A DNA stretch of 64,000 nt from Lachnospiraceae bacterium (lineage in GTDB: Bacteria > Bacillota > Clostridia > Lachnospirales > Lachnospiraceae), in the NCBI GenBank assembly GCA_028689655.1, contig JAQVCT010000004.1, forward strand, positions 1-64,000, in the 5' to 3' direction. Shown here piece by piece: positions 17,253 through 36,881 of this stretch. The notes beneath the pieces were generated by a model. The model saw only the letters and a program-made list of their open reading frames with translations. It searched no databases and was not told the origin of the DNA. Position numbers and translations under genes: made by a program. How positions within the stretch are numbered: position 1 is the stretch's first letter; each line of letters begins with the position of its first letter.

Positions 17253-17289
17253 TTTCATTTCCTCCTGTTTTTGAACATCAGCCCATTTT

Positions 17290-17405
17290 AAATTTGTCCT
17301 GCTTTCATAATCCCAAAAATATTCGAAATCCGCCCTAATCGGGCTACTTTCTCATGTTTTACGGGTCCCAAATTCATACTTTTTCGTGCGAGCACGAAAC
17401 GCATG
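17290..17405. repeat. Hairpin-rich segment overlapping the trpG 3' end, possible dispersed repeat
   Basis: Two small stem-loops: GCCC/GGGC near 17333-17345, and a perfect TTTCGTGC / GCACGAAA pair near 17384-17401. The second lies inside the last codons of trpG and encodes its odd C-terminal tail. The segment looks inserted relative to the tight packing of the rest of the operon. Repeat status is a guess, since only one copy is in this window. Confidence 0.4.
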
Positions 17406-17997
17406 ACCTTTTGACCCTGGTATCATCACAGTATTTAGATAAAAAATTTTCCAGAATCTGTTTCCCATCCGGCGTCATAATGGATTCCGGATGAAACTGA
17501 ACCCCATAGATGGGATATATACTGTGCTGTATCGCCATGATCTCACCATCCTCCGCTCTTGCTGTTACCTTGAGACATTCCGGAAGTGTATCTTCCACAA
17601 CCGCCAGGGAATGATATCTTGCCACCTTCATCTCCTCCTCACACCCTGTAAACAGTGGGGAGTCCCTGTCCACTGTTGCAATCGATTGTTTTCCATGCAT
17701 CATTTTCTTCGCATAGGATACTGTCGCCCCAAAAGCAATACAGATTGCCTGATGTCCCAGGCACACACCCAGAATCGGTATCTTTATCCCAAGCTTCTGT
17801 ACTACCTGTACACAAATGCCTGCATCCTCCGGCTTTCCAGGACCCGGTGAGATCACAATAGCATCCAGATGAAGTGCTTCCAGTTCCTCCACCGTCATGG
17901 CATCATTTCGGATCACCTTCATATCCTGCACCATAGCCCCCATCATCTGATATAGGTTATAGGAAAAACTGTCATAATTATCAATCAGTATAATCAT
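17374..17997 (-). CDS. trpG: Anthranilate synthase component II (glutamine amidotransferase)
   Basis: Supplies ammonia from glutamine to TrpE. 207 residues. Class I amidotransferase motifs: NYDSFSYNLYQ at the N-terminus, SPGPGKPEDAGI, the nucleophile block GVCLGHQAIC (Cys near residue 79), and the catalytic His-Glu in GVQFHPESIMT. The start overlaps the trpE stop as ATGA. The normal domain ends at about ILENFLSKYC. The following tail of roughly 17 residues (DDTRVKRSCVSCSHEKV) is encoded by a hairpin segment and is not typical of the family. Confidence 0.96.
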   Translation of the reverse strand: MIILIDNYDSFSYNLYQMMGAMVQDMKVIRNDAMTVEELEALHLDAIVISPGPGKPEDAGICVQVVQKLGIKIPILGVCLGHQAICIAFGATVSYAKKMMHGKQSIATVDRDSPLFTGCEEEMKVARYHSLAVVEDTLPECLKVTARAEDGEIMAIQHSIYPIYGVQFHPESIMTPDGKQILENFLSKYCDDTRVKRSCVSCSHEKV

Positions 17998-26210: not shown

Positions 26211-26290
26211 TTCGATTCATGGAGGCTTAATCACCAGGCGCTCATCCGATTCTTCTCTAACACAAGACAGAACTCCCCATGCCTTGTATT
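26211..26290. repeat. Degenerate partial copy of the palindromic element
   Basis: Positions 26222-26250 are identical over 29 bases to 34963-34991 near the left end of the long palindrome. The next 35 or so bases remain recognisably similar (AACACA.GACAG.AC...ATGCC). There is no opposing arm, so this is a fragment. It lies just after the MerR stop codon. Confidence 0.8.
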
Positions 26291-26303
26291 ATCAATCATC
26301 CTG

Positions 26304-27143
26304 CTAAGCACCTGATGACTTAGCTTCCCGGATGGGTATCTCTATCTTCGTAATATAGTTCTCCATGGTATCGATCACCATCTCATTAATTCCTGTCTCA
26401 TAGGAATACCCTGACAGTTCTATATGGTTCTGCTCTGCATATTGCAATAGTTCTTCATATCGGTATGGTAACCTGTCCCAGCTTCCCTTGCAGAATGCCT
26501 GTAGATATTTTCCTCCCGGCTGTATATGCACACCTTTCTTATTTTGTGCATTGGGAAGCTGTATAAATAAAAGGGAATAGTCGTGAAATTCCCGGGCATA
26601 CAGACTTTTCACGGAGATCATGGAGCCATAGGTCTCCTGATACATAAGGGGAAGATGATACTCTCTGGTCTGCCTGATGACTGCCTCCACATCTTCCTCA
26701 AAGGATTTCTCCGGTGTGGTCTGTACGGTGGCCAGGTAGTGTGGCTCTTTCTCTATCACGCTGATCCTGGAGGGATCAAGACTTAGCAGTTCCCTCATAT
26801 TGGTATGACGATCGCACAGCTTTTCCCGAATTGCCCTGAGGTTCTCAATATTCTCATCCAATTCTACGATTTTTTCCCGCAACAGACTTTCCATACTTTC
26901 CGTGGAGCGATGCCTCATAAAGTCCTGTATATCACTGACGGATACCTTCATCTCCCGAAGCAGCAGGATCGTCTCCAGCTCTGTACTTTGATAGTAGCTA
27001 TAGAATCGATATCCATTTTCTTTGTGGATCATTGCAGGTTTGAATAACCCGATCTCATCATAGAACATAAGGGTCTTTTTATTGATTCCATACATCGCGG
27101 CAAACTGCCCGATGGTAAACAACGTATTTTTTTCTTTTGACAT
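26304..27143 (-). CDS. MerR-family regulator with GyrI-like effector domain
   Basis: 279 residues from the ATG at 27143 (MSKEKNTLFTIGQFAAMYGINKKTL); an open frame extends 46 residues further but lacks a ribosome site and crosses the promoter. The N-terminal winged helix LFTIGQFAAMYGINKKTLMFYDEIGLFKPA and ENGYRFYSYYQSTELE are standard MerR. Then comes a coiled-coil helix (residues 80-115) and a C-terminal GyrI-like small-molecule domain, as in BmrR-type drug sensors. The promoter carries an 11-bp direct repeat next to the -10, likely an autoregulatory operator. A divergent GNAT acetyltransferase starts 130 bases away and is the obvious target. Confidence 0.87.
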   Translation of the reverse strand: MSKEKNTLFTIGQFAAMYGINKKTLMFYDEIGLFKPAMIHKENGYRFYSYYQSTELETILLLREMKVSVSDIQDFMRHRSTESMESLLREKIVELDENIENLRAIREKLCDRHTNMRELLSLDPSRISVIEKEPHYLATVQTTPEKSFEEDVEAVIRQTREYHLPLMYQETYGSMISVKSLYAREFHDYSLLFIQLPNAQNKKGVHIQPGGKYLQAFCKGSWDRLPYRYEELLQYAEQNHIELSGYSYETGINEMVIDTMENYITKIEIPIREAKSSGA

Positions 27144-33051: not shown

Positions 33052-34830
33052 CTATACCATCCCCCCGTCCAGAATCTTCGTGCGAATGGTAATCTCTGTT
33101 CCGCACCCGATCTCACTGGTAATGGTGATGGGTGTGGTGATTCCATAGAAAAGAGAGATTCTCTGAATCGCACTATAGAGTCCGAATCCAGACTTAGACA
33201 TCCTGTTTCTTCCTCCCAATATATCTGCCACCTGTTCCTCCGTCATGCCCACGCCATCATCGGTCACGATGAAGATCATCTCGTCCTCATCCTGATACCC
33301 CTTTATGGCGATAGTGCCCATGCCATCTCTGTTGCGGATTCCATGGTGTACCGCATTTTCCACGATTGGCTGCAGGATCAGTTTCAGAATCTTCTGTCTC
33401 TGGATCTGTTCCTCCACATCGACCTCCAGATGAATCCCATCGTTGTAGCGCACGTTCAATATGGTTACATAACTTCTGATACAGTCCATCTCATCCGCCA
33501 CTGTCACCAGTTCCCTGCCACTGCTCAGACTGTTCCGGTAGAACATCCCCAGTGCCTGGGTCATTTTAAAGCAATTATCATTATCTCCCAGCAGTGCCAG
33601 TGCCGACACCGCATCCAGCGTATTATAGAGGAAATGGGGATTTATCTGCGCACGGAGCAGATCCAGCTCATTTTTCGCAATGGTCTTCTCCTCCCCCTTT
33701 ATCTTTTCAATCAGTTGTTCTATGGCATGTATCATGGCATTAAAGCCTTTTTTCAGATCATTGATCTCATTGGCATTCCCCTCCGTGATGGGAATCTCCC
33801 TGAACTGCTCCTGCTCCGCAAAGCCCATGTATTCCTGTAAGTTAGACAGGGGTTTGAAGATGAGCTTCATCAAAGTAACAGAACACACGAATACCACCAG
33901 GATATTTAACAGGATGATCAATGCGATGAGAGACTTCTGATAGTTTCCCATGACTTTTCTGCTGTTGGTGGGCATCATTCCCACCAGGCTCCAGTCCTGG
34001 ATTCCCATCTCCTGTTTCACCACGATAGTCTTCTCCTCCTCATAGGTCATTGTCTTATATCCCGACCCTGCAATCTCATTTTGCAGTAAGAGCTGATCCA
34101 ATTCCGGATTCGTCTCTGCGGGAGGGATGATGTAGTGATTCCTGGAATCCACGATGCAGTACTGGCTGTCATACTCTTCCCCCACTGCGTCAAAATACTC
34201 TAAAAATGTAGATTCATCAATGCTGATGAGCAGGGTGGCAAGGGGCGAATAGTCATTCTGGTCACTGATCATCCGCGCCAGAATAATACAGTTCTTATTT
34301 TTCCTGGTGGGATAACGAAGCACACCATCCGTTCCGTGACTGAATACGATTCCACCGTCATGCTCCTTCGCCTCCAGGTACCAGGGAGCTGTCTGTATCT
34401 TCTCATTGTCCACCAGAATGGGGGACTGTTTGGTGGCAGAATAGGAATTATAATATTTATCGAAGATAAATACATTTTCCATGTAATCACCGGACAGGAG
34501 CATATTCACCAGACTCTTCCTGATGGTCTGCTGAATCACCGGATCGATATTCCTGTCATTCACTCTGCCCAGAGAGTCCTGCACGTTCTTATCAAAATAG
34601 ATCAAATCGGAAAATTGAGAGACGTTCTCGAAAATAAAGTCCATGTTACCTTTCAGGGCACTTGCCGTCTGCATGGCAACCGTACCAACCTCCTGCTCCG
34701 TATAGCGTTGGTTGATAATGGCAAATACTCCATAGGAAAGTAATATGGACAATATTAGAATTGATATATAGATGACGATGATCTTCGTCCTGATCTTCAT
34801 GTTGCAGATTATTTTCTTTACCTTGTTCAT
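33052..34830 (-). CDS. YesM-type sensor histidine kinase (module 2)
   Basis: 592 residues from the ATG at 34830 (MNKVKKIICNMKIRTKI), chosen because GGTGGGG lies just upstream; a longer frame reaches 34938 without a ribosome site. Order: first membrane segment (IIVIYISILILSILLSYGVF), extracellular Cache-like sensor region, second membrane segment (LIALIILLNILVVFVCSV), HAMP, the kinase histidine in AQINPHFLYNTLDA (His_kinase family), and the ATPase boxes PIVENAVHHGI and DDGVGM...GFGLYSAIQR. It senses an extracellular sugar or a ligand-loaded binding protein and phosphorylates the adjacent regulator. Confidence 0.93.
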   Translation of the reverse strand: MNKVKKIICNMKIRTKIIVIYISILILSILLSYGVFAIINQRYTEQEVGTVAMQTASALKGNMDFIFENVSQFSDLIYFDKNVQDSLGRVNDRNIDPVIQQTIRKSLVNMLLSGDYMENVFIFDKYYNSYSATKQSPILVDNEKIQTAPWYLEAKEHDGGIVFSHGTDGVLRYPTRKNKNCIILARMISDQNDYSPLATLLISIDESTFLEYFDAVGEEYDSQYCIVDSRNHYIIPPAETNPELDQLLLQNEIAGSGYKTMTYEEEKTIVVKQEMGIQDWSLVGMMPTNSRKVMGNYQKSLIALIILLNILVVFVCSVTLMKLIFKPLSNLQEYMGFAEQEQFREIPITEGNANEINDLKKGFNAMIHAIEQLIEKIKGEEKTIAKNELDLLRAQINPHFLYNTLDAVSALALLGDNDNCFKMTQALGMFYRNSLSSGRELVTVADEMDCIRSYVTILNVRYNDGIHLEVDVEEQIQRQKILKLILQPIVENAVHHGIRNRDGMGTIAIKGYQDEDEMIFIVTDDGVGMTEEQVADILGGRNRMSKSGFGLYSAIQRISLFYGITTPITITSEIGCGTEITIRTKILDGGMV

Positions 34831-34913
34831 CCAGTTCCCCACCTGACTTAGCCTTCTGCTTTCACACATCCAGTATATCGCGTATTTTCTTTCCATGGAA
34901 CCTATTATTTTGT

Positions 34914-34936
34914 GGGAAAAGGGTAATATTTTTACC
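34914..34936. promoter_or_regulatory. Candidate regulator site before the sensor kinase gene
   Basis: GGGAAAAGGGTAATATTTTTACC contains the inverted pair GGTAA / TTACC and resembles 31341-31363 (GGAAAAGG.TAA...TTTAC) ahead of the binding-protein gene. It lies 84-106 bases upstream of the kinase start. Confidence 0.35.
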
Positions 34937-34947
34937 ATCTATGATTA

Positions 34948-35460
34948 TCAAATGTGATTCGAGAGGCTTAATCACCAGGCGCTCATCCGATCATGCGCAA
35001 CACAGGACAGGACGATCTATGCCCCACGGTTCACAGACAATTCAAAATTATTCATAAGCTTCCCGATTTTATAAATTGGGAATATTGTACCGATTTTCAT
35101 ACTGTTTGAGTATTTTCCCTTAGGGGATTACCATTCCTGTTTGAGGCTTTGACTGGATTTCAGCATGGGGTAGGGGGTGCCACAGGAACGCAGCCTAGGC
35201 AAATACGCAACCGCCGCGAATTACCTGTGGCACCCCCTACCCCATGCTGAAATCCAATCTAAGTTATGGCAGGAATGGAATAATCTCCTTAGGGAAAATG
35301 GGAGTTTATGAAATCGGTACAAAAGCCTGTTCCCAATTTATAAAATTGATGGAAGCTCTTTGAATGATTTTGTGTCTGTGAACCGTGGGGCATGGATCGT
35401 CCTGTCCTGGCACATAATCGGATGAGGGTCTGGTGACGAAACCTTCCGAATCACATTTGA
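34948..35460. repeat. 513-bp imperfect palindrome
   Basis: Left arm 34948-35186 (239 bases) and right arm 35224-35460 (237 bases) are inverted copies, roughly four-fifths identical by eye along their whole length. The inner 33 bp (35154-35186 with 35224-35256) pair perfectly. The loop is 37 bases with an 8-bp self-palindrome GCCTAGGC. Both outer ends read TCAAATGTGATTCG inward. The right end includes the last codons and stop (HQM) of the response-regulator gene. I see no open frame, transposase or known RNA family in it. A degenerate fragment is at 26222. Confidence 0.92.
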
Positions 35461-36881
35461 TGAATCTTGCGGTACTCTGTGGGGGAGACTCCGCTGATGG
35501 ACTTGAATGTCTTCATGAAATGTTTCTCATTCTCATAGCCGATCTTCCTGCTGATCTCCTGTATCCTGTCGTCGGTGTGTTCCAGCAGGCGCTTGGCTTC
35601 CTGGATGCGGATATTTTTCAGATAATTGACGAAATTGACCCCTGTATATTCCTTGAACACGATGGAAAACAGGGAATAATTCATGGAAACATGGTTGGAC
35701 ACCGTGGCCATATTCAGGTCTGTGGCATAGTGGCTCTTGATGTAGGTGATGGCCTGGTAGACCTTCTCCTGGTTGCGATCCACCTCCATATGCTCTTTCA
35801 GGAGTCGTTTCATCTGGGCGAACTGCTGATCCTCATATGTGATCCATGCATCCAGATTGAGGAACTCCAGCGGTTCCCGTCTCTGTCTCACGATCTCCGG
35901 ATAATTATCCTCCAGTCTGTCCCAGATATCATGGATGAGCTGTAAGATTGCCTGGGGTTCATATCTGCCGTGCTGTCCCTGAAAATAGAGATTGTGAAGC
36001 TCTTTTCCTGCCTGCTCCAGCTGTTCCGTGGGAAACTGGCGGGCAAACTTCTCAGCGAACTGTTCTGGCAGTTCCAGTTTCTCCTGGGTCGTTCCCCATT
36101 CCTTTTTCCCCCAGAGGAACATCTGGCCGCGCAGTCGCTGGAGTTCTTCCAGCCCTGTACGCATCTCCTCCAGGGAATGATGGATCTCACTTCCCGTCAC
36201 AAATCCGATCTGCCTCTCTTCCATGAGCTCTGTGAGTTGCTCCAGGGATTCCATGCCTTTATCCGTGGGAAAAAGGATCACGGACTGATGCCTTTCCCCT
36301 TCCAGAATCAGTTCCCGGGGCAGGAGCTCTGCCAGACTTCCGGCATCACAGCCTGCCATCGCCATACGGTAATCCTCCGTGCCCAGATCCTCCCTCACGG
36401 CTTCGGTAAGGGCTTCTTCCTCCGCTTTTCCCAGCTCTTTGCCTTCCAGCAGCATGGTCAGATGGTGAAAGAGAATCTTTCTTCCATTTTCTTCCCGTTT
36501 CTGCTCCTGCTCTATATTTTTCTCCATTTTCTGCAGGACTTCCTGAATACGCTCCCGCTTCACAGGCTTTAACACGTAATCGATCACGCCGTTTTTCAGC
36601 ATTTCCACTGCATAGTTAAAGTCATCATAACCACTGATCACCGCCGTCTGTGGGATATGTCTGCATTCCTGCATGGCATCCACCAGCGCTATTCCATCCA
36701 TCTTCGGCATCTTGATATCGGTGAACATAGCATCGACTTTCCGCTGTCGAATCAGCTCCAGTGCCTCCAGACCATTGCGGCACTCCAGGATCTCACCGAT
36801 GGGGATGCCCGTTCTTCTTGCCATGGCTGCGATGCCCTGGCGAATCATCTTTTCATCTTCTACGATCAACAATGTCTGCAT
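35451..36881 (-). CDS. YesN-type response regulator, AraC output (module 1)
   Basis: 476 residues. Receiver domain: LLIVEDEKMIRQGIAAMARR, phosphoacceptor Asp in AMFTDIKMPKMDG (near residue 54), ISGYDDFNYA and YVLKPVKR. The central linker is about 250 residues. The C-terminal AraC domain covers LNMATVSNHVSMNYSLFSIVFKEYTGVNFVNYLK and IQEISRKIGYENEKHFMKTFKSISGVSPTEYRK. It begins one base after the sensor kinase gene. The last three codons and the stop are shared with the end of the long palindrome. Presumed target: importer module 1 and the beta-glucoside enzymes upstream. Confidence 0.93.
   Translation of the reverse strand: MQTLLIVEDEKMIRQGIAAMARRTGIPIGEILECRNGLEALELIRQRKVDAMFTDIKMPKMDGIALVDAMQECRHIPQTAVISGYDDFNYAVEMLKNGVIDYVLKPVKRERIQEVLQKMEKNIEQEQKREENGRKILFHHLTMLLEGKELGKAEEEALTEAVREDLGTEDYRMAMAGCDAGSLAELLPRELILEGERHQSVILFPTDKGMESLEQLTELMEERQIGFVTGSEIHHSLEEMRTGLEELQRLRGQMFLWGKKEWGTTQEKLELPEQFAEKFARQFPTEQLEQAGKELHNLYFQGQHGRYEPQAILQLIHDIWDRLEDNYPEIVRQRREPLEFLNLDAWITYEDQQFAQMKRLLKEHMEVDRNQEKVYQAITYIKSHYATDLNMATVSNHVSMNYSLFSIVFKEYTGVNFVNYLKNIRIQEAKRLLEHTDDRIQEISRKIGYENEKHFMKTFKSISGVSPTEYRKIHQM

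Follow-up and report, generated by a model that had tools for sequence, protein, structure and literature searches.

ERIC and the other enterobacterial repeats, YPAL/RU-2 among them, are non-coding imperfect palindromes of ~100-170 bp that are mostly intergenic (PMC2229807, PMC10969869). ERIC, YPAL and RU-2 can sit at the 3' ends of genes and are transcribed into hairpins (PMC2229807, PMC10969869). The Correia/NEMIS elements of Neisseria occur in short and long forms that have a common sequence and a variable interior, and their RNA hairpins are cut by RNase III (PMC2229807, PMC10969869). At gene ends, hairpin repeats of the ERIC, NEMIS/Correia and MITE-like kinds can, by way of RNase III or RNase E, alter the stability of mRNA (PMC2229807, PMC10969869). 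In this report, we describe a palindrome of 524 bp in a 64,000-nucleotide stretch of a Lachnospiraceae genome (hereafter, the window). We consider it fairly likely that this palindrome is an old, decayed, non-coding foldback repeat of the MITE/ERIC type, the longest copy in a hairpin family of few members, lodged at the 3' end of a response-regulator gene.

The palindrome and its locus

The palindrome extends from 34943 to 35466, with arms of ~244 bases each. Its left arm (34943-35186, plus strand) pairs with its right arm (35224-35466, minus strand) across a loop of 37 bases (35187-35223). The initial annotation had placed the inverted repeat at 34948-35460; the repeat is indeed there, but it is slightly longer than was proposed. 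The accompanying description of arms inverted over their full length was accurate, as they can be aligned throughout and are identical in 203 of 232 ungapped columns (87.5%, or 77% when the 23 gap columns are counted). The perfect 33-bp inner stem and the 37-base loop were also found as described, and the stem plus loop (35154-35256) had no second copy. The arms have drifted apart through substitutions and small indels; the claim that the changes are mostly transitions holds only marginally, given 16 transitions and 13 transversions among the 29 differing positions, with several indels besides.

As an inverted self-alignment, the palindrome scores 412, versus a mean of 16 and a maximum of 40 for 200 dinucleotide shuffles. 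The runner-up among tight local palindromes scores 85, in a scan that took in ~748 kb of the 3.4-Mb genome, partly stretches picked for holding matches. A distant inverted pair that flanks a gene on contig C8 scores 123 as an inverted repeat, and a low-scoring palindromic signal of 278 bp in contig C14 comes from tandem units of a different hairpin repeat.

The gap between two operons on the minus strand is almost entirely taken up by the palindrome. The last gene of the upstream operon (35451-36881, minus strand) encodes an AraC-type response regulator with Pfam Response_reg and HTH_18 matches; the first gene of the downstream operon (33052-34938, minus strand) encodes a sensor histidine kinase (dCache_1, His_kinase and HATPase_c), whose start codon, by eye, is probably near 34830 and preceded by a GGTGGGG ribosome-binding site. 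This gene layout and the Pfam matches agree with the earlier placement of the element between two minus-strand sensor/importer operons. As extended here, the right end of the palindrome reaches into the response-regulator gene's final codons (its stop is at 35451-35453), such that the outermost 16 bases of the right arm overlap the 3' end of that reading frame. The statement that the element contains no gene was upheld, in that no Pfam family scored above its curated cut-off in the stop-free frames tested; on the same result, we rejected the notion of an insertion-sequence remnant. A congeneric species has an orthologous operon, with a regulator that is 40% identical, that lacks such a palindrome at its end and is followed by other genes.

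It had been noted that a palindrome this long is normally unstable in bacteria. The palindromes at greater risk are those whose arms are longer and more alike and whose spacer is shorter or lacking altogether (review, PMC7999016). The host genome encodes SbcD and an adjoining SbcC-like protein (contig C46), yet the 37-base loop and the mismatched arms lower the risk of instability and fit with the persistence of the palindrome. The concern was therefore overstated: in a genome with genes for SbcC- and SbcD-like proteins, a foldback palindrome of ~0.5 kb can survive until its arms have diverged by ~12%.

Other hairpins were encountered along the way. A repeat of 84 bp (GAACATCAGCCCAT...AAATTTGC...GCAAATGGGCTGACGCT) forms four tandem units at C14:77039-77372 and is dispersed elsewhere; its locations include C14:77008-77375 (locus L111, 17008-17375) and C14:84838-85005, as well as loci L090, L092, L116-L118, L120 and L121. 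The C14 array matches no Rfam family at the gathering score. A short end piece of this repeat matches window positions 17272-17296, at the edge of a match to the Clostridiales-1 RNA (RF01699; window 17272-17425, minus strand; 67.3 bits versus a gathering score of 48). At C8:141142-142263 (locus L079, 17142-18263), a gene that by eye resembles those for SAM-dependent methyltransferases has hairpin units of ~72 bp on both flanks: one flank carries a tandem run of three, the opposite flank a single inverted unit. Another genome of the same family (G360:C65; locus L106, 1774-1991) has an imperfect palindrome of 218 bp with 66% arm identity and, by eye, an unrelated sequence; long foldbacks of this sort may not be rare in this bacterial family. 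An alphaproteobacterial MAG (locus L042, 7077-7314) also holds an imperfect palindrome, of 238 bp and 74% identity.

Related copies within and beyond the genome

When the palindrome was used to query its own genome, one other place was found, at window positions 26222-26273 (87% identity over 52 bp, E = 1.6e-9). The outer ~60 bases of the palindrome occur there as a short element (26222-26323) at the 3' end of a MerR-type gene, the last codons and stop of which come from the right end of this small copy. The left family end of the palindrome (GAGGCTTAATCACCAGGCGCTCATCCGAT...GACAGGACGATCTATGCCCC; 34963-35020, plus strand) is common to the dispersed copies and comprises both the match to 26222-26273 and a match (34967-35020) to R1, a sequence profile made from the family's arms. 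The right family end (35390-35447, minus strand) is diverged; R1 matches it at 35390-35441 on the minus strand with E = 1.8e-6, a sequence that is itself part of the model.

An 18-base end pattern, CACCAGGCGCTCATCCGA, has 10 matches in the genome with up to three mismatches, and its reversed control has none. Three of these are inside the window, two make up a single hairpin (C15:3523-3594), one is part of another hairpin (C70:52269-52371) and one is a half site (C70:40991-41030). The remaining three we took as chance matches, their context having been read by eye as coding-like sequence. In the C15 and C70 hairpins, three arms outscore all 2000 shuffles in comparisons with the 26222 copy; R1, made from these arms, finds the same set again by construction. 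Hairpins of ~70-100 bp with the ends of the palindrome are thus present on contigs C15 and C70, and there are partial copies elsewhere; an inner piece is seen again at C69:164317-164340. A further hairpin, at C8:175699-175766, resembles these at its ends, but its match is marginal (shuffle p 0.01-0.02) and we did not accept it as a member. The firm copies therefore number only ~4 (the 524-bp palindrome, 26222, C15 and C70), the rest being weak or partial.

Most of the copies lie at or just past the 3' ends of genes, and some supply or overlap stop codons. Both at 26222 and at the palindrome locus, the final codons and the stop of the gene come from the element or overlap it. The initial annotation had called for a search for a homologous element elsewhere, and the outcome was divided: the ends turn up again elsewhere in this genome, but no further copy of the ~350-bp interior was found there. 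The right ends disagree between copies (26222 versus the palindrome, shuffle p 0.27). Possible target-site duplications, judged by eye with ends undefined, are CTTA at 26222, CTA at C15 and AGTT at the doubtful C8 hairpin; in the flanks of the palindrome, whose exact ends are likewise not defined, none was seen by eye. The end pattern and R1 turned up no further copies of the ends in the 94%-complete genome, and no transposase-bearing relative was found in these end searches.

DNA and end-profile searches of 60 relatives and 397 genomes of the bacterial family gave no clear homologue. The weak DNA matches in the other family genomes are short; none of nine that we checked resembles the element, and the best of them (locus L099) is a short palindrome in its own right. 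Eight marginal matches to the end model in other genomes were read by eye, and none forms a paired hairpin. Phages and plasmids yielded nothing by blastn with the palindrome, nor did plasmids with the 26222 copy, nor did viral contigs scanned with four patterns. GTDB contigs gave 16 single matches to the end pattern, about the number expected by chance; they fall in Streptomyces, Caulobacter and acidobacterial MAGs, for example, and none is in a record named clostridial. Within the genomes sampled, the hairpin family is apparently confined to one species.

Probable origin of the palindrome and possible fate of its transcript

The ends of the palindrome bear on how it arose. Positions 34963-34991 are identical to 26222-26250 over all 29 bases (GAGGCTTAATCACCAGGCGCTCATCCGAT), whereas within the same 29 bases the palindrome's own two arms differ at 6 positions. 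The left end therefore matches the 26222 copy better than it matches its partner arm, which implies that the arms had already diverged by the time of the last copying (or conversion) of the ends. This order of events favors a dispersed element over a single late or purely local inverted duplication. Such a duplication would have come about if snap-back or template-switch replication had made an inverted copy of the response-regulator gene's 3' end together with the ~240 bp that follow it, with the arms drifting thereafter; the seed was perhaps a small hairpin repeat already in place. Past the family end, another ~20 bases or so are palindromic and reach the closing codons of the response-regulator reading frame, GATT(C)ATCAAATGTGATTCG; simple insertion does not predict this. 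This feature, the poor agreement of the right ends and the single-copy interior together lead us to retain local duplication as a rather unlikely but serious alternative, and the absence of the palindrome from the ~400 family genomes searched is in keeping with it. The 29-base identity, with 6 of the 29 differing from the partner arm, indicates that the ends do not stem from one late event, an argument that fails if gene conversion replaced one end. That a read or contig was joined to its own reverse complement during assembly is highly improbable: the genome is a draft in 70 contigs, but 29 positions and several indels distinguish the two arms, and different intact operons lie on either flank.

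The initial annotation had offered a MITE-like element, an insulator processed by RNase III and a new structured RNA as candidates. The MITE-like option is the best supported of these, since both ends of the palindrome are present as dispersed copies in the same genome. Like a MITE, the element has terminal inverted repeats, is short (524 bp) and non-coding, and has dispersed copies; the copies are few and the interior is unrepeated. We propose that an element whose family ends carry RTCACCRGGCGCTCATCCGA...CTAACACAAGRCAGGACG spread its copies through transposition or some comparable copying mechanism, that one of these took up its place at the response-regulator gene's 3' end, and that this copy then decayed through substitutions and small indels. 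More tentatively, RNA that reads through from the upstream operon would fold into a long hairpin (predicted at ~-330 kcal/mol), which could pause the polymerase or be cut by RNase III; pausing or cleavage might in turn keep the leader of the downstream operon apart from the 3' end of the upstream one.

It is a stronger claim that a giant minus-strand hairpin has been selected as a regulatory RNA or insulator that undergoes RNase III processing or stops transcription between the operons, and we deem this improbable. The palindrome does fill nearly the whole gap, with no intrinsic terminator (a G+C-rich stem followed by a T-run) in 34700-35700, and its predicted fold is very stable. Each strand is predicted to form one long hairpin (-338.7 kcal/mol for plus and -328.4 kcal/mol for minus), as expected of any such palindrome. 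The same lack of a T-run or terminator-like site argues against a hairpin that stops transcription. Only 6 arm differences preserve pairing through G-U on the transcribed minus strand versus 10 on the plus strand; with no minus-strand excess, nothing points to selection for a minus-strand RNA. Nor is the perfect inner run of 33 bp surprising, as ~0.3 runs of such length are expected at 87.5% identity. The earlier remark that the element matches no RNA family was correct, as no Rfam 15 family reaches its gathering score for the palindrome; the hairpins draw only sub-threshold matches to miRNA precursors, as any long hairpin does. Homologues for an analysis of covariation were not found and, given the G-U counts as well, the suggestion of a new structured RNA gained no support. 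We likewise doubt that the host has adopted a giant dsRNA hairpin, recruited from a hairpin repeat, to insulate the two sensor/importer operons by RNase III processing. If the palindrome processes or insulates transcripts, the locus would offer a clean natural system for testing long dsRNA hairpins that lie between operons. This palindrome, with dispersed ends and no coding content, in a family whose copies mostly lie at gene 3' ends, is probably a minor relic resembling mobile DNA rather than a proven new RNA.

Comparison with known hairpin repeats

The decayed foldback repeat that we favor has points of contact with each of the systems introduced above. ERIC is present in tens to hundreds of copies, whereas the family described here has ~4 firm copies, one of them 524 bp long, a comparison made by description only. 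With bacterial MITEs, the family shares terminal inverted repeats, a lack of detectable coding capacity and dispersed copies. Unlike MITEs in general, the palindrome has no autonomous parent that we could find and no clear target-site duplication, and its arms are paired over nearly their full length. NEMIS elements are abundant and have 24-bp terminal repeats and a target-site duplication, in contrast to the element described here, whose inner palindromic part is much longer and which shows no clear duplication of its target. Still, like NEMIS, the family includes both short and long forms, which have sequence in common and an interior that varies. Such elements have been described mostly in Proteobacteria, Neisseria and pneumococcus; the present work adds to them a small family of hairpin repeats in what appears to be a clostridial lineage.
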